A stretch of DNA of 64,000 nucleotides from Clostridia bacterium (lineage in GTDB: Bacteria > Bacillota > Peptococcia > DRI-13 > SM3-B62), in NCBI GenBank assembly GCA_018433675.1, contig JAHDQS010000003.1, positions 1-64,000 on the forward strand, in the 5' to 3' direction. Positions 7,225-58,513 of the stretch are shown one piece after another. The position numbers and the translations under genes are program-made. The notes below the pieces were generated by a model. It had not been told where the DNA came from and made no database searches. It saw only the letters and a list, made by a program, of their open reading frames with translations. Each line of letters begins with the position of its first letter. The stretch's first letter is position 1.

Positions 7225-9756
7225 TCAAACAACGCCGCGAAAATAGTGGCCCCCGGTGCAGCCCTCCGGCGCCAGTTCATTCAATATTTTCTTGCTTTCC
7301 TCTAAGATAACGTATTCCGGACCCATTTTCATTTCCCTCTTTATTTCCCCGGAATAGGTCGCCACTACACTTTTTACCCAATAGGGGTTCTCTCTTTTGG
7401 CCTCGATCCGCAAGACATCGACACCTGTCTTAAGGATTTGGGGCAAACGTTCCGCCACATTAAGTGTCTTGGCATTATATACCCTCATCCTACAGGATTC
7501 GTCCATTTCTAAAGGAAAGACCATTTTCATTCTATCCCGCAAGCCATATCGCCTCTTTTCACAAGGCATCCGGCACTCGTGCTCGTCGCTCTTTCTCCCC
7601 AGGGCATTACCTACAGCACAATGCTCGGTTATCATCAACGGTAGTCTGCCATGTATGAGGCATTCCGTACCCACGTGACCAATATACATAATTTTTTTAA
7701 TCTGTTCCAGCGTCAATTCCGGGGACAGTGTCACCCGAGCTACGGAAAAACTGTCTCGCAACAATTTAATAACATAATCGTTGAAGATATTCAAGGTATA
7801 ATCGGCTATTAGTCCCTTGATGCCCATTTCCTTGGCAATCTGCAGTACTCCCGGGTTCCCGGCCAAAAACCCATCGGCACCTGCTTCAAGGCCCCGTTCA
7901 CAAACAGCTTGTATTTCCTTTTCATTTTTTTCATGAAACAGGTACGGCAACTGCAGAACAGCACGAGCTCCCCGCTCATGACATGATTTAACGGCCTTGT
8001 GATACTCGTTAAGACTTATTCCCTCTCTGCCCCGTAGTCTCTCACCGCCAAAGTATATGACATCTGCTCCGCCTTCCGCTGCGGCACACAATGAAGACAT
8101 ATCCCCTACCGTTACCGCAAGCTCTGTTGTTTTACGCCTTATCGGTTTGTTGGGAATGTTTTTTTTCAAAATTTCCAAGCGTTTACGATAAAGATTTTCG
8201 CTTACCTCAGACTTCTTATACATCGCCAATCTTTGCTCATCAAGAATTTCCACAGCCCTGCGCCGCAAATCGTTGAGTTCACTGACAGGAACCATCAATC
8301 CCTCCCCGCCTACGACCGTTAGATCGCGCAAATAGTAGATGCTGGTCCCCAGCCTTGCCAGCTGCTTTGTAATAACCTCTCGGGTGATTGGCTGTTTTTT
8401 GGCTTTTTCCACAATATATCTACCTTGAACCGTTGCCTGAAACCCGTTGTTGTCTCTTGCCGACATCAGCAAAGGCTCTCCGTTTGTAATCTCCAAGTTG
8501 ATGTCAAGAGAATATTTTTTAATCCCTCCTCTGCCCGCAAAAGTCTTGCCGGCCTTTTCAACCAGAGCAATATCCATGGTTTTGAAAATCCGATCTCCGG
8601 TGTATGGTGTACCGTCATTTATCCGGAAGGAAACCCTGCCGCCTTCGGCCATTTCTATGTTTTCTTTGTCTTTTCTTAAGGCTTTAATCTCACCTGCAAT
8701 GCGTCCTCCCTTTGTTACCCAAATTTCGTACCCGTCTCCTACCCGTAAGGGGTTTTCTAAATCTACCGTGACCTCGTTGTTTCCCCTATCATACGAAATA
8801 ACTCTCCCAATGAATAAACCTCTGTTGTTGGGACGCTGATAACTCATCAGGTGAATTCCCGGTCGTTTTAAGTAATACCCTGTTGTAAAGCCGCGGTTAA
8901 AGACCTGCCCCAATTCTTTTTCCGCTCCGGACAGCAAGTAGTTTTCTTCGTCGGCAATTGCATCCAGGGCTTGGCGATAATTCCTGATTACGGTCGCCAC
9001 ATATTCGGGTCTTTTCATCCTTCCTTCCACCTTCACAGAGTCAATACCTGCCTCTTTAAGCTCAGACAAGTATTTGAGCATATTCAGATCTTTAGGTGAC
9101 AGGAGATATCCGCTTGTTATTTCCTTACCTTCGTCTTCGACCAAGGTATAGGGCAAACGACATGGTTGGGCACAACCACCACGATTTCCGCTCCTCCCAC
9201 CTACCATGCTGCTCATCAGACACTGCCCGGAATAGGAAACACACAAGGCCCCATGAACAAAAGCCTCCAAGGGTAAAACCGCTTTTTCTTTGATTAGCCT
9301 GATATTGGCCAGGGAAACCTCCCTGGCCAATATCGCCCGGGAAAAACCTTCGCCTTGTAAAAAGCGGACTCCGGCCGCATTATGAATCGTCATCTGTGTG
9401 CTGGCATGTATCTCCATCTCGGGAAACAAATGCTTGGCGACAAGGGCAACACCTAAATCCTGCAGGATCACGGCATCAATATCTATTGAATACAATTGGA
9501 AAAGATAAGCAAAAAGCTCTTCGTACTCACTATTATCTATCAACGTATTCACCGCCGCATATACCTTCACGTTATGAAGATGGGCATATCTGACTGCTTC
9601 CGCCAGTTCGCTGTCATTAAAGTTTTCCGCATACCGACGAGCACTGAATACCTTTCCCCCTAAATAAACGGCATCAGCCCCGTTTTGCACGGCTGCCCTC
9701 AATGACTCCAGAGTACCTGCCGGCGCTAAAAGCTCAGGGCCAAAACGAGCGGACAT
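7225..9756 (-). CDS. U32 family protein with DUF3656 (RlhA/TrhP type)
   Basis: This is an 843-residue U32 family protein, annotated as a peptidase but, in characterised members, needed for hydroxylation of 23S rRNA (RlhA) or tRNA U34 (TrhP). The N-terminal U32 core opens with PELLAPAGTLESL. It contains the cysteine cluster region GNRGGCAQPCRLPYTL and the signature SVKVEGRMKRPEYV. A DUF3656-like middle follows, then a second barrel-like half (from about 550) with further cysteines that could complete an iron-sulfur site. The length suits the long single-chain form. It lies between a strong terminator hairpin upstream and mutS2 downstream. The RNA target cannot be decided here. Confidence 0.85.
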   Translation of the reverse strand: MSARFGPELLAPAGTLESLRAAVQNGADAVYLGGKVFSARRYAENFNDSELAEAVRYAHLHNVKVYAAVNTLIDNSEYEELFAYLFQLYSIDIDAVILQDLGVALVAKHLFPEMEIHASTQMTIHNAAGVRFLQGEGFSRAILAREVSLANIRLIKEKAVLPLEAFVHGALCVSYSGQCLMSSMVGGRSGNRGGCAQPCRLPYTLVEDEGKEITSGYLLSPKDLNMLKYLSELKEAGIDSVKVEGRMKRPEYVATVIRNYRQALDAIADEENYLLSGAEKELGQVFNRGFTTGYYLKRPGIHLMSYQRPNNRGLFIGRVISYDRGNNEVTVDLENPLRVGDGYEIWVTKGGRIAGEIKALRKDKENIEMAEGGRVSFRINDGTPYTGDRIFKTMDIALVEKAGKTFAGRGGIKKYSLDINLEITNGEPLLMSARDNNGFQATVQGRYIVEKAKKQPITREVITKQLARLGTSIYYLRDLTVVGGEGLMVPVSELNDLRRRAVEILDEQRLAMYKKSEVSENLYRKRLEILKKNIPNKPIRRKTTELAVTVGDMSSLCAAAEGGADVIYFGGERLRGREGISLNEYHKAVKSCHERGARAVLQLPYLFHEKNEKEIQAVCERGLEAGADGFLAGNPGVLQIAKEMGIKGLIADYTLNIFNDYVIKLLRDSFSVARVTLSPELTLEQIKKIMYIGHVGTECLIHGRLPLMITEHCAVGNALGRKSDEHECRMPCEKRRYGLRDRMKMVFPLEMDESCRMRVYNAKTLNVAERLPQILKTGVDVLRIEAKRENPYWVKSVVATYSGEIKREMKMGPEYVILEESKKILNELAPEGCTGGHYFRGVV

Positions 9757-9839: not shown

Positions 9840-10793
9840 TTAGTTCCTGCTGACCCGAGTCAGGCCGGAACAGGGAATAAATTTCACTCCCTTTTGCTCC
9901 AAATAATCAAGCACAAGGTTCATTCCCAAAGAATCACTTGCCATATGCCCGGCGATAATGACATTGACGTGGTTTTTCTCAGCAGCCTTCCTATTTTTCT
10001 CGCTGATATGCATACCTACAACTGTACCAACACCGGCAACCGAAAGCTTAAGAAAGGCGTCATCCGGTCCCCCGGTCCCTCCGGTCATATCAACGAAAAT
10101 TTTTCCGGCCCGCCTTTTCTCAGAACCTACCACGATCTTCGGACCCGAACCGGTTTCCATTGCCCTTTGGTATTCAGGGATTTTCCTTAATATCTCTACA
10201 ACATCACCCAGAGTTTCGGGCGCTTTTTCTTCAAATACATGTGTCAGGAAAGTATTGACCATATTATCGGCGGGCGTATGAACGCACATCAAGGGAAATC
10301 CCAACAACCGAGCGGCATCGACAGCACGGTTATGATTAAGCGGCATCAGGTTTCGTTCAACCTCGCTGATTCGCGAAGTAAGAATACCTTCCGCTACGTT
10401 TATCGGAATACCCATCCCTGCCAGAATGTCCTCCTGCATATGCATAACCCGGTGCAAAGCAGCCAGAGCTTTACCCTCAGGATGGTGAGACAACACCAAG
10501 TCTATCTTTTCCCCCTTTTCTCGCAAACGATCGGCCAGGACAATTTCAGGGGCTTCCATGTCAATCCCTACCAGTACGCTTGATACCTCTTGCTCGGGAT
10601 CTCCATTTAGAATACGCGTATCATTATATGGATTGGTCAGCCTTTCAAGATCAAAAAATTTCTTTTCCTCATTCTTCAGTTCTTCATATTGTTCTTTCGT
10701 CAACTCAAGGGTCCGCGTCACTTCTTCGAAGGGGCGAGGATCATTCTTTCTGCCCAGTTCTACTACCGTACGGTAAAGATCTATTAGCTTCAT
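9840..10793 (-). CDS. NIF3-like family protein
   Basis: This 317-residue protein belongs to the NIF3/DUF34 group, conserved metal-binding proteins of uncertain biochemical role. Supporting residues are LVLSHHPEG (His pair), the GHMASD segment near the C-terminus and an acidic VDMTGGTGG stretch. The ATG at 10793 is preferred because GGAGGT lies six bases upstream; a longer in-frame start at 10832 has no such site and would run into zapA. It follows zapA by 19 bp and belongs to the pheST operon by position. The frequent neighbourhood of such genes with housekeeping operons does not reveal function. Confidence 0.8.
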   Translation of the reverse strand: MKLIDLYRTVVELGRKNDPRPFEEVTRTLELTKEQYEELKNEEKKFFDLERLTNPYNDTRILNGDPEQEVSSVLVGIDMEAPEIVLADRLREKGEKIDLVLSHHPEGKALAALHRVMHMQEDILAGMGIPINVAEGILTSRISEVERNLMPLNHNRAVDAARLLGFPLMCVHTPADNMVNTFLTHVFEEKAPETLGDVVEILRKIPEYQRAMETGSGPKIVVGSEKRRAGKIFVDMTGGTGGPDDAFLKLSVAGVGTVVGMHISEKNRKAAEKNHVNVIIAGHMASDSLGMNLVLDYLEQKGVKFIPCSGLTRVSRN

Positions 10794-53006: not shown

Positions 53007-53056
53007 AAAGGTGGGTAAGGAAACAGCGAAAATACTGCTTCCTTACCCACCTTTTT
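53007..53056. terminator. bidirectional terminator after the fumarase-like genes
   Basis: AAAGGTGGGTAAGGAA and TTCCTTACCCACCTTT form a 16-bp perfect stem with short A- and T-runs at the ends. It separates the catabolic operon from the convergent peptidase gene. Confidence 0.92.
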
Positions 53057-53082: not shown

Positions 53083-54207
53083 TCAATTTTCTGCGCGTTC
53101 AGAGATTATCGCCGCAACAAGCTTTGCGGTGTTTACCAAATCCTCCACTTTTATTTCTTCCTCAGTGGTATGCACCTTGTTCATCCCGGTTCCTAAGTTA
53201 ACTGCCTTGATGCCTTTAACATTGAAATAATTCGTATCGCTTCCGCCACCCGAAGAAACTACCCTTGTGACTAATCCGGCCGCTTCAGCAGCCTTTTTAG
53301 CCACCCTGATCAACATATCGCTCTCAGGAATATGATAAGACGAATACTCTCTCCCCAAATCTATCTCTAAATCAGCCCCCATGTCCTCACAAGCCTTCCT
53401 CAGACAATCGTACATATGCTGTGTTTGCAGGGCTAACTTTTCGTCAGACAAGCTTCTGGCCTCACCCTTCAGTTCTACCCTGTCACAAACAATGTTCGTG
53501 GCAGCACCTCCGTTGATAACCCCGATGTTTGCCGTTGTTTCCTCATCGATACGCAAAAGCTTCATGTTGTTAATCGCCCTGGCCGCAACCTGTATGGCAC
53601 TGACACCCTCCTCGGGGTTCATCCCCGCGTGGGCCGCTTTGCCATAAATCACAGCACTTATCTTGTCCTGGGCCGGAGCACGATTGATTATTGTCCCCGG
53701 GGCCCCATTACAGTCAAGGACATAGCCTGTCTTTGCATCAAGCAGAGTATAATCCAGATACCGCGCCCCAAGAAGCCCAATTTCCTCCCCTACCGTAAAG
53801 AGGACCTCAATATCGCCGTGGGGTATCCCTTCCTCCTTGATGTGTTGCAGTGCCTCTAAGATTGCGGCAATACCCGACTTATCATCTCCTCCCAGCACGG
53901 TATCACCGCTGCTGTAAATGACTCCGTCACGAATAACCGGACGAATATCCTCACCCGGCACAACGGTATCCATGTGGGCCGCAAACAAGATAGGAGGAAT
54001 ACCGTTGACGTTTCCTCGCCACCGTCCTATTACATTTCCGGTATCCGACTCCGTCAATTTCCGTGACTTTTCGTCGATAATTACCTCTAGTCCCATTCCT
54101 GCAAGTCTTTTAGACAGATATGAGGCAAACTCCCCTTCTTTTTTGCTTAGGCTTGTAATCTTAACCATCCCCAGGAATTCTTTCACTATCCGCTCCCTGT
54201 CAATCAC
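53083..54207 (-). CDS. M20 family peptidase, tripeptidase T-like
   Basis: This 374-residue zinc metallopeptidase of the PepT-like branch has metal and catalytic motifs FAAHMDTVVPG, LGGDDKSG, FTVGEEIGLLG, a conserved Asp in YVLDCNG and the C-terminal His in NKVHTTEEEI. The dimerisation insert begins near AAHAGMNPEEGVSA. It is cytoplasmic and probably releases an N-terminal residue from small peptides. It is a single gene with no clear link to its neighbours. Confidence 0.92.
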   Translation of the reverse strand: MIDRERIVKEFLGMVKITSLSKKEGEFASYLSKRLAGMGLEVIIDEKSRKLTESDTGNVIGRWRGNVNGIPPILFAAHMDTVVPGEDIRPVIRDGVIYSSGDTVLGGDDKSGIAAILEALQHIKEEGIPHGDIEVLFTVGEEIGLLGARYLDYTLLDAKTGYVLDCNGAPGTIINRAPAQDKISAVIYGKAAHAGMNPEEGVSAIQVAARAINNMKLLRIDEETTANIGVINGGAATNIVCDRVELKGEARSLSDEKLALQTQHMYDCLRKACEDMGADLEIDLGREYSSYHIPESDMLIRVAKKAAEAAGLVTRVVSSGGGSDTNYFNVKGIKAVNLGTGMNKVHTTEEEIKVEDLVNTAKLVAAIISERAEN

Positions 54208-54294
54208 TTGGCACTACCTCTCTCTCAATCGAAAAAACTATAACTAATTACTATCTTATCACTACGGTACCATATTTCAATCAACAACTTTCTC

Positions 54295-54336
54295 GGAGTA
54301 TCTTGACCTGGCGGTATAGCTTGTATGTAAATGCTT
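54295..54336. repeat. direct repeat copy A (remnant of hydA 3' end)
   Basis: 42 bp matching 54964-55005 at 39 positions, including an uninterrupted 30-bp identity (54298-54327). Read on the minus strand it encodes LHTSYTARSRY, the end of HydA, and runs on to SEKVVD and a stop. It has no hydA sequence before it, so it is an isolated fragment. Confidence 0.9.
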
Positions 54337-54478
54337 CTACCAGATAAATACAATCGTTTTGAATTATAGATAAGCCTTTGTTCAATTGGTAACTTTTAAA
54401 ATTTTCTCACTGTATGCAGAAGGAATATTTGGTATTTTATAGAATATAGTACTAAAGACATAAAATGGAGGTATTATA
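54337..54478 (+). promoter_or_regulatory. upstream region of the cassette gene
   Basis: AT-rich 142 bp between repeat copy A and the GTG start. TATTTTATAGAATATAG near 54431-54447 can serve as -10 elements; no clear -35 is seen. No transposase, integrase or terminal inverted repeat is present. Confidence 0.3.
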
Positions 54479-54988
54479 GTGAATATAAATCCTGTTTTTC
54501 CGGTACAAAGCCTCACTATGCATTCACAAGAAAACATTGCCGATAAAAAGAGTAAGGGCTTCAACCAAGTAGTAGAATTAAAATCTGAAACACCTATTAA
54601 TTTAGGGACGATCGGTGGCAAGCCCTTCGTTATGCAAATATTTCAAGATGGCGGCTATGAATGGTCAGGCAGTCTACGTATAAAACAACCAAAAGCCGGA
54701 GCTAGAGTGACACCTGAAGAGGCAGCGGCTGCTTACGCCAGTCAATCATACAATATGGAAGAACATATTGAGTGCGGTGCTGTATCAGCCGTAATTAATT
54801 CTTTATACATAATGACAAATAAAGGGGTAGAACCCGACACATTTAACGATAAAATGAAAGCTTTCAATATATCACAGAATGAAGTCGAGGAAGCTTTATG
54901 CCGTTTAGGTATTAATACAAACGAAGCTTTCACTTTGAATGGTCACACTTTTGTTTTAGATAAGGGGTATCTTGACCTGGCGGTATAG
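54479..54988 (+). CDS. hypothetical protein in the hydA-flanked cassette
   Basis: A 169-residue protein not assigned to a family. It has no signal peptide or membrane segment. An N-terminal part of about 70 residues (GTIGGKPFVMQIF) precedes a helical half with HIECGAVSAVINSLY and two cysteines. It starts with GTG seven bases after GGAGG. Its last codons (YLDLAV and stop) lie inside repeat copy B, so the C-terminus is read from the antisense of hydA. It converges on hydA with a 46-bp overlap. The repeats suggest that the gene arrived as a small mobile cassette. Confidence 0.7.
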   Translation: MNINPVFPVQSLTMHSQENIADKKSKGFNQVVELKSETPINLGTIGGKPFVMQIFQDGGYEWSGSLRIKQPKAGARVTPEEAAAAYASQSYNMEEHIECGAVSAVINSLYIMTNKGVEPDTFNDKMKAFNISQNEVEEALCRLGINTNEAFTLNGHTFVLDKGYLDLAV

Positions 54989-56703
54989 CTTGTATGCAAA
55001 AGCTTATGGGATATCTCACTTAAGGGATGCCCTAAGAACTCCCGGTAAATCTTTTTGATTTCCGGGTTTTCGTGTGACTTTCGATAGGGTAGTTCCTGCT
55101 CTGCCTTGTAGAGAGAATCGGCACGGTCCATCCGGTAATCCATTGAGCCTTCCCAACCCCTGCGGAAGGAAAGGATTGGCTGCCCGCCGCCGCCTACACA
55201 TCCCCCCGGACACCCCATTATCTCCACAAAATGATATTTCTCCCCCGCTTTTATTTTCTCAAGGATTTGCTTCGCATTCCCTGTGCCGTGGGCAATTCCC
55301 ACCCTTATCAAACCCTGGGGCATTTCTACTTCTGCCTCTTTCAGACCGTCCATGCCTCGCAGGGACTGTTCATACTGAGGCAAAGGAAATTCTTTTCCGG
55401 TCTCAAGCTCATAAATCGTCCGCAAAGCAGCCTCCAAAACACCTCCCGTGGCTCCGAAAATCAGCCCGGCTCCACTGGCGATCCCTAACGGCTCATCGAA
55501 TTCCTCTTCAGGCAGGTTGATAAAATCCAGCCCCGCCTCCCTGATCATCCTGGCTAACTCCCGTGTCGTAATAACTACATCTACGTCCTTAAAACCGCTG
55601 TCTGTCATCTCTGGGCGGTTTATTTCATACTTTTTAGCCGTACAGGGCATGACAGAAACAACCACCATCCTGGCCGGATCTACGCCTATTTTCTCGGCAT
55701 GATAGGTTTTGGCCAACGCCCCAAACATGGAATGGGGCGATTTTACTGTTGACACATGTTCCAGCATTTCCGGATAAAAATGCTCACAGTATTTGACCCA
55801 CCCCGGACTGCAGGAGCTTAAATGAGGAAAGGGTCCTCCGCTTTTCAGCTTTTCAAGGAATTCATGCCCTTCCTCCATTATTGTCAAATCGGCGGTAAAG
55901 TCCGTATCGAATACCTTGTCAAAACCCAGCCTCCGCAAAGCCGCAACCAGTTGTCCTGTAACAACCGAACCTATCTGCAGACCAAACTCTTCGCCCAACG
56001 TTACCCTAATCGAAGGGGCTACCTGGACAACAACCCATTTTTCAGGATCGTGCAAAGCTTCCCAGACCTCTTTTGTATTATCCGGTTCGTGGATCGCTGC
56101 CGTTGGGCAGACATTGGCACACTGCCCACAGGTGATGCAGGCAACATCATCCAGGCTCAAACCAAAGGCAGGTGAAACCATGGAGTCAAAACCCCTGTGG
56201 ACTGCCGAATAAACAAAGGCCTGCTGCACCTTTGAGCACACAGCGATACAACGGCGGCAGCGAATACATTTAGCCGGTTCCCGCATCACCGCTACAGATT
56301 TTTCATCATTCGGCGGTTCTCTTTTCTCCCCACGAAAGGGTATCTCCAGAATATTAAAACGGTGAGCCAAGGCTTGCAACTCACAATTCATATTGCGATA
56401 ACAGCTCAAACAATCCTGAGGGTGTTCCGATAAAAGCAGCTGCAAAGCGGTACGGCGGGCCTTTAAAACCCTGGGGGTATTTGTCCGCACAACAAGCCCT
56501 TCCGCAACCGGATATACGCAGGAGGCTTGCAAAGTTTTAGAACCCTCAATTTCCACTACGCAAACCCGGCACGTCCCTACTTCATTAAGGCCTTTCAAAT
56601 AACATAAGGAGGGAATGTCTATTCCTATTTTCCAGGCAGCCTCAAGAACACTCGTCCCTTCCGGTACAGTTACTTTTTGCTCGTCTATCGTTAATGTCAC
56701 CAT
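54943..56703 (-). CDS. hydA: [FeFe]-hydrogenase catalytic subunit of a trimeric NAD-linked enzyme
   Basis: 586 residues. The N-terminal [2Fe-2S] domain carries CYLKGLNEVGTCRVC. Next come a His-Cys type cluster region (HPQDCLSCYRNMNC) and two [4Fe-4S] clusters (CIRCRRCIAVC, CITCGQCANVC). The H-cluster domain has SSCSPGW, MPCTAKKYE and MGCPGGCVGGGGQP. ATG 56703 follows AGGAGTG. With the NuoF- and NuoE-like subunits it should evolve or oxidise H2 with NADH, alone or with ferredoxin. The final residues (after SRY) differ from those preserved in the upstream repeat, so the native end appears to have been replaced. Confidence 0.95.
   Translation of the reverse strand: MVTLTIDEQKVTVPEGTSVLEAAWKIGIDIPSLCYLKGLNEVGTCRVCVVEIEGSKTLQASCVYPVAEGLVVRTNTPRVLKARRTALQLLLSEHPQDCLSCYRNMNCELQALAHRFNILEIPFRGEKREPPNDEKSVAVMREPAKCIRCRRCIAVCSKVQQAFVYSAVHRGFDSMVSPAFGLSLDDVACITCGQCANVCPTAAIHEPDNTKEVWEALHDPEKWVVVQVAPSIRVTLGEEFGLQIGSVVTGQLVAALRRLGFDKVFDTDFTADLTIMEEGHEFLEKLKSGGPFPHLSSCSPGWVKYCEHFYPEMLEHVSTVKSPHSMFGALAKTYHAEKIGVDPARMVVVSVMPCTAKKYEINRPEMTDSGFKDVDVVITTRELARMIREAGLDFINLPEEEFDEPLGIASGAGLIFGATGGVLEAALRTIYELETGKEFPLPQYEQSLRGMDGLKEAEVEMPQGLIRVGIAHGTGNAKQILEKIKAGEKYHFVEIMGCPGGCVGGGGQPILSFRRGWEGSMDYRMDRADSLYKAEQELPYRKSHENPEIKKIYREFLGHPLSEISHKLLHTSYTARSRYPLSKTKV
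54964..55005. repeat. direct repeat copy B (functional hydA 3' end)
   Basis: Matches 54295-54336 at 39 of 42 positions, with an offset of 669 bp. It is shared between the end of hydA on the minus strand and the end of the cassette gene on the plus strand. Confidence 0.9.
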
Positions 56704-56716
56704 TTTTTTATCACTC

Positions 56717-58513
56717 CTAAACCTTGGCAATAGCTCCAAAGGGGCATTTGGCTTGGCAAGCTCCGCATTTGATGCAGATATCTTGATGAATAACAAACGG
56801 AGGTTTGCGGGGTGTACCGCTGATAGCCTCTACAGGACAAACCCGGGCACAAACCGTACAGGCCGTACACTTTTCAGGAATTATTTCAAAGCGAAGTAAA
56901 CTGCTGCATACTCCCGCCGGGCAACGTTTATCCCTGATATGAGCAATGTATTCATCTTCAAAAAAGCGCAGCGTACTCAGAACGGGATTAGGTGCCGTCT
57001 GTCCCAAGCCACACAATGAACTGCCCTTGATGTCTTCAGCCAGACTCTTTAATAATTCGATATCACCTTCTTCACCCTCGCCCTGAGTTATGCGCTGTAG
57101 TATCTCCAACATTCGCTTGGTCCCCACCCGGCAGGGAGTACACTTCCCGCAAGACTCATCTTGGGTGAATTCCAAAAAGAAGCGGGCAATATCCACCATA
57201 CAGTCACTTTCGTCCATTACAATCAACCCACCTGAACCCATCATGGCCCCAAGCTCAATCAGGCTTTCATAATCCAAAGAAGTATCAAGATATTCTTTCG
57301 GCAGGCACCCTCCCGACGGGCCGCCGATTTGAGCTGCTTTAAACTCTCTGCCCTTGGGAATACCGCCTCCAATATCGTAAATTATTGTCCTGAGACTGGT
57401 CCCCATCGGCACCTCGATCAAGCCGGTGTTATTGATTTTCCCGGCCAGGGCAAAAACCTTAGTACCTTTGCTTTTTTCTGTTCCTATCCCAGCAAACCAC
57501 GGGGCACCTTTCAAGATGATCCGCGGCACATTTGCCAGCGTCTCAACATTATTAATCAGGGTCGGTCGATGGAACAAACCATCGACTGCCGGAAAAGGGG
57601 GACGAGGTCTCGGTTCTCCCCTCCTGCCCGCAAGAGAGTGCAGCAATGCGGTTTCTTCCCCGCACACAAAGGCTCCTGCCCCTAACCGCAATTCAATATC
57701 GAAATCAAAACCGCTGCCAAAAATGTCCTTTCCCAATAAACCCGTCTTGCGGGCCTCTCCTATTGCATGTTCAAGTCTTTGTACAGCTATAGGGTATTCG
57801 GCCCTTACATAAATATAGCCCTGGGCGGAGCCGATAGCATAACCGGCAATGGCCAGCCCTTCAAGAATCGCATGAGGGTCTCCTTCCATAATGCTTCTGT
57901 CCATAAAGGCGCCGGGATCCCCTTCGTCCCCGTTGCAGATGACATACTTGATTTCGCCTGTGGCATGACCGGCATAAGACCATTTTCTCCCTGTCGGGAA
58001 ACCCCCTCCCCCCCGACCTCTCAAACCGGACTTTGTAATTATATCAATGACCTCTCGGGGGGTTTTCTTTGTTAACACCTCAGCCAAAGCGAAATAACCG
58101 TCACGAGCTATGTATTCCCCGATATCCTCCGGGTTTATCTGCCCACAATTATGGAGCACTTCCCGCCGCTGATGACGAAAGAATTCAATATTACTGAGTT
58201 CCGCAACCCTGTCCTTCCCGTCCGGCTCCTTGTACAGCAAGCGCTCAACTATTCTCCCTTTCAGCAAATGCTCACAAACGATCTCCCCGATATCCTCCGG
58301 CTTGACCCTGCAGTACATAACTCCTTCCGGATAAACGAGCATAACCGGTCCCATAGCACAAAAGCCAAAGCAGCCCGTCGGTACAAGTCTGACCTCTTTT
58401 TCTAAACCATGTTTTTCAAGCTCCTCTTTTATAGCCTCGTCTATTTTCTCACTTCCTGCCGACACACAGGCAGTACCATGGCACAACAGCAAATGCACCC
58501 GTTGGTATTTCAC
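56717..58513 (-). CDS. hydB: NuoF-like hydrogenase subunit (NADH/FMN)
   Basis: 598 residues. An N-terminal thioredoxin-like [2Fe-2S] domain (CHGTACVSAGS) is followed by the NADH- and FMN-binding core (GLRGRGGGGFPTGRKW, CNGDEGDPGAFMDR, GAYVCGEETALL-type GAFVCGEETALL). An SLBB domain and a [4Fe-4S] site (ESCGKCTPCRVGT) come next. The C-terminal ferredoxin module binds two [4Fe-4S] clusters (CTACTVCARVC, CIKCGACQAKC). It overlaps hydC by four bases and precedes hydA by 13 bp. The layout matches HydB of bifurcating and of NADH-dependent hydrogenases. Confidence 0.95.
   Translation of the reverse strand: MKYQRVHLLLCHGTACVSAGSEKIDEAIKEELEKHGLEKEVRLVPTGCFGFCAMGPVMLVYPEGVMYCRVKPEDIGEIVCEHLLKGRIVERLLYKEPDGKDRVAELSNIEFFRHQRREVLHNCGQINPEDIGEYIARDGYFALAEVLTKKTPREVIDIITKSGLRGRGGGGFPTGRKWSYAGHATGEIKYVICNGDEGDPGAFMDRSIMEGDPHAILEGLAIAGYAIGSAQGYIYVRAEYPIAVQRLEHAIGEARKTGLLGKDIFGSGFDFDIELRLGAGAFVCGEETALLHSLAGRRGEPRPRPPFPAVDGLFHRPTLINNVETLANVPRIILKGAPWFAGIGTEKSKGTKVFALAGKINNTGLIEVPMGTSLRTIIYDIGGGIPKGREFKAAQIGGPSGGCLPKEYLDTSLDYESLIELGAMMGSGGLIVMDESDCMVDIARFFLEFTQDESCGKCTPCRVGTKRMLEILQRITQGEGEEGDIELLKSLAEDIKGSSLCGLGQTAPNPVLSTLRFFEDEYIAHIRDKRCPAGVCSSLLRFEIIPEKCTACTVCARVCPVEAISGTPRKPPFVIHQDICIKCGACQAKCPFGAIAKV

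Follow-up and report, generated by a model that had tools for sequence, protein, structure and literature searches.

A lineage-specific insert bounded by copies of the hydA 3' end in a Clostridia genome

The window analyzed here is a 64,000-nucleotide stretch of DNA from a Clostridia bacterium (contig JAHDQS010000003.1, positions 1 to 64,000). In it, the hydA gene, whose product is a PF02906/PF02256 protein, is separated from a pepT-like gene on the same strand by a small gene, ORF1, on the opposite strand. The name pepT rests on sequence resemblance and not on a family scan. The features of the locus are as follows:

53083–54207, minus strand: pepT-like peptidase gene, original downstream neighbor of hydA (open reading frame list; gene order in outgroup genomes G002 and G005)
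54276–54336, minus strand: outer hydA 3'-end copy, now displaced, running to SEKVVD and a stop; pepT lies 69 bp away
54337–54478, plus strand: GC-poor ORF1 leader inside the insert (sister alignment, GC analysis)
54479–54988, plus strand: ORF1, 169 aa, orphan family; final codons now derived from the hydA repeat (KGYLDLAV)
54943–54988, no strand: ORF1 and hydA overlapping tail to tail by 46 bp, an outcome of the deletion (open reading frame list)
54960–54970, no strand: approximate junction of the ~362-bp deletion (alignment with the sister genome)
54964–55011, minus strand: inner repeat copy within hydA, now truncated (repeat searches)
54943–56796, minus strand: hydA, [FeFe]-hydrogenase large subunit, C-terminus altered to PLSKTKV; start placed provisionally at the first codon of the open reading frame

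The original prediction described a 42-bp direct repeat around a 669-bp unit with one gene, and for the window this description is accurate. The copies at 54295–54336 and 54964–55005 span 42 nt, match at 39/42 bp (93% identity), lie in the same orientation at a spacing of 669, and consist of the DNA coding for the HydA C-terminus. From base composition alone, chance would yield about 1e-10 such pairs per 64 kb. A longer query delimited the outer copy to 54276–54336 (92%) and the inner copy to 54965–55011 (96%). A search of the entire genome of the window revealed no third copy of the hydA-tail repeat.

A second genome of the genus, the sister G001 (contig JAHDSQ010000026.1), likewise carries an ORF1 homologue between hydA and pepT, and this is the sole close homologue of ORF1 (90% over 165 residues). 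There, the repeat comprises the last 67 bp of hydA including the stop codon; its copies lie 1002 bp apart, show 99 and 94% identity to a common 67-bp query, and cease to be identical 1–2 bp past the stop codon. The sister HydA has a normal end, PQKVVD. The insert is AT-rich and contains two small genes oriented against hydA, namely ORF1 and the 78-codon ORF2, the N-terminus of which is hydrophobic and membrane-like. The original unit was thus larger than that predicted from the window, with two genes and a repeat of ~67 bp running through the stop codon. Alignment of the two loci showed that ~362 bp are missing from the window, from about codon 162 of ORF1 through ORF2 and into the inner repeat. 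The window thus carries a secondarily deleted form of the locus, of which the sister has kept the undamaged form. A ~362-bp deletion in the lineage of the window, and not the insertion, accounts for the PLSKTKV end of HydA, for the reduced repeat length and for the 46 bp by which ORF1 and hydA overlap. The different end of the inner copy, which had been noted as part of the integration, is therefore real but of later origin, as the inner copy of the sister ends normally.

The GC content of the insert is 0.36, at the 2nd percentile of the window, and that of hydA and pepT is 0.49. Between the sisters, identity is 93.6% for ORF1 and 92–94% for the flanking genes; since insert and flanks are equally diverged, the insertion is older than the split of the sisters. 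Some constraint acts on ORF1, the dN/dS ratio of which was 0.34–0.52 by two methods, as against 0.03–0.05 for hydA; this suggests that its protein works or did so until recently. That the structure arose as an assembly artefact or by local tandem duplication, instead of by insertion, is highly improbable. Both assemblies are fragmented (58 and about 70 contigs), and at least that of the sister is a metagenome-assembled genome (MAG); however, the structure is common to two separately assembled genomes at normal divergence, no other copy of the insert lies at the locus as a source for a duplication, and the insert is absent from the outgroups.

The proposed check for an empty site was run on relatives and succeeded in two outgroup genomes, G002 and G005, in which hydA is followed directly by pepT at spacings of 72 bp and ~108 bp. 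Both belong to other families of the same order as the genome of the window, and their hydA genes are the closest orthologues of the window hydA (81–82% identity in the C-terminal 150 residues). As the outer copy lies 69 bp from pepT, it most likely marks the original hydA–pepT junction. The expectation that the empty site would end in SEKVVD did not hold, the outgroup HydA tails differing in their final residues. Moreover, a copy of the hydA tail downstream of hydA was found at 0/27 hydA loci outside the genus, G002 and G005 included. The best downstream tail scores at these loci were 6.5–11, compared with 53.5 and 34.5 in the two genus members; the survey covered at most 1.5 kb of downstream DNA, and a shorter stretch where a few contigs ended, so that larger islands could escape it. 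A search for homologues of the small gene beside other hydA copies had also been proposed; no second integration of this kind was observed. A short hydA-tail match in a further genome (G020:C7) was set aside, as it sits at a contig end. A PF02256 survey of 398 genomes for displaced tails returned only the strongest, near full-length matches.

A second hydA copy had been named as an alternative source of the fragment. This was ruled out: the remaining hydA copies in the genome reach only 46–49% identity, and with the tail DNA lacking a third copy, no hydA is able to supply the fragment. An identical direct-repeat layout would also arise by a Campbell-type event, in which a circle already carrying the hydA tail beside ORF1–ORF2 integrates by homologous recombination. 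We consider this unlikely, because it requires a prior tail-bearing molecule, and none was found in viral contigs searched with the repeat core or among 198 relatives. Furthermore, 67 bp is a short homology for RecA-dependent integration.

ORF1 had no weighty match in Pfam, NCBIfam or PDB, a weak match to a PHROG of unknown function (E 0.005), and no relatives in viral contigs or in phage or plasmid collections; its AlphaFold model was poor (mean pLDDT 46.7). Each sister has one ORF1 paralogue, ~40% identical, in an IS-rich region, where the partner gene downstream is a different one and looks secreted. This is the sole paralogous locus, and its flanks show no gene-end duplication. About 48 bp immediately upstream of ORF1 are common to the cassette of the sister and the paralogue (score 30, maximum of 1000 shuffles 22); the ORF1 leader of the window itself no longer matched the DNA upstream of the paralogue above chance. 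Two distant homologues (E 4e-6 and 6e-5) come from a different family within the phylum.

In the genome of the window, a 51-bp direct repeat (92%, copies 3157 bp apart; G000:C34, L008:6719–6769 and 9876–9926) has its second copy shortly before the ORF1 paralogue and an inverted copy near 8800, with a remnant of an rve-type transposase and an M23 peptidase gene as neighbors. In the sister, the paralogue is split across two contig ends (L007, L047; G001:C29, C68), as though other DNA had broken into it, and what lies upstream of it differs from the neighborhood in the genome of the window. Each of the distant homologues (L042, L043; G417, G379) is preceded by a further small orphan gene, and in G417 a transposase-like gene adjoins the homologue.

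Integrase-type integration leaves a recognizable signature, in which the 3' end of the target gene is regenerated and a displaced 3' fragment is found at the far end (PMC4383910). In the sister, the insert lies between an intact hydA 3' end and a displaced 3' fragment of the same orientation, and the corresponding empty site is present in G002 and G005. A foreign, AT-rich two-gene cassette of ~0.93 kb entered at the hydA stop codon in the ancestor of the genus, and the last ~67 bp of hydA were duplicated, leaving hydA intact and a displaced tail copy beside pepT. We put at about even the chance that this insertion was of the integrase type. As the cassette encodes no recombinase, it would then be either a cargo-only remnant or an element on which a recombinase acted in trans. 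Later, in the lineage of the window only, the ~362-bp deletion took ORF2 together with the inner repeat's end and altered the ends of HydA and ORF1.

We infer a site-specific recombinase as the agent of the insertion. The original prediction had stated that no recombinase is present, which was borne out: no phage integrase or serine recombinase was found in the insert, the window or the flanking contig. Likewise, no recombinase was found near the locus in either sister genome and no integrase at the hydA end in any relative, the repeat core matched nothing in viral contigs, and literature searches yielded no report of integration at hydA. The idea of site-specific integration is thus right in outline, as an insertion into the hydA–pepT junction with empty sites and a duplicated hydA 3' end, but its details are corrected here, its mechanism is putative, and neither a recombinase nor a repeat of the event at a different hydA gene was found.

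A less probable yet serious alternative is capture during repair, in which foreign or relocated DNA is taken up at the hydA end while a staggered double-strand break is mended, or through template switching, the 67-bp duplication representing filled-in long overhangs and no dedicated recombinase being needed. The single event in the genus, the absence of a recombinase near the locus, the 27 other loci at which hydA ends are not used repeatedly, and the paralogous ORF1 cassette at an unrelated place without gene-end duplication all agree with repair. However, the identity ends 1–2 bp past the stop codon with hydA kept intact, and repair has no such aim, although selection for a working hydA would favor an intact-gene outcome. 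A single event fits both an att identity block and a long target duplication from break repair, and does not separate the two. A transposon would likewise repeat its target sequence directly on both sides; however, the insert contains no transposase open reading frame, and the repeat scan of the window found no inverted repeat at its ends. Target duplications of transposons are not known to reach 67 bp.

Among known systems, the insert most resembles the tRNA/tmRNA genomic islands and the cis-mobilizable elements (CIMEs). It shares with the former the Islander signature of an intact target and a same-orientation displaced 3' fragment, but targets a protein gene, has no integrase, is smaller than typical islands and falls far below the 2-kb minimum (PMC4383910). 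CIMEs are cargo elements of 1.2–13 kb without recombination genes at the 3' ends of protein genes, the targets in Streptococcus salivarius being rpmG, rpsI, fda and rplL (PMC7563491). The hydA insert is similarly small and cargo-only, sits between direct repeats where a gene ends, and has no recombination or transfer genes; the repeats are candidate att sites, and mobilization genes are absent as well. It differs in its target gene, hydA, in its size of about 1.0 kb, just under 1.2–13 kb, and in showing neither a sign of ICE or IME ancestry, for which ORF1 relatives were sought in phage, plasmid and viral collections, nor a neighboring integrase-bearing element. The best fit is a CIME-like island, cargo-only and integrase-type, at the 3' end of a gene.

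A hydA-3'-end-specific class of recombinase-free mobile cassettes, moved by an integrase in trans, is quite improbable. A survey of 693 kb, mostly from the genome of the window, looked for direct repeats 30 bp or longer at a spacing of 250–4000 bp, leaving aside repeats seemingly internal to repetitive proteins. Other dispersed direct repeats occurred at two places, neither overlapping a gene 3' end, so that this 693-kb sample gives no sign of a cassette family. Genes with long, highly similar internal repeats were seen at G000:C21 and C23 (L075, L077).

The hydA–pepT insert is real, well delimited and lineage-specific, and the relatives provide a natural series of empty, full and decayed sites. 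Should the repeats be att sites, the 3' ends of hydA genes would be added to the protein genes known as integration targets; otherwise, this is an ordinary lineage-specific insertion. The two sisters also illustrate the decay of a scar, with one cargo gene and one repeat end lost, a decay that gave a central energy enzyme a new C-terminus and made two genes overlap tail to tail.

An RNA-family search found no match, and promoter and terminator scans gave no useful margin over shuffles. At 53007–53054 of the window, a 20-bp, 95% inverted repeat with an 8-bp loop lies between the ends of plus-strand genes and the convergent pepT-like gene, and it is possibly a bidirectional terminator.
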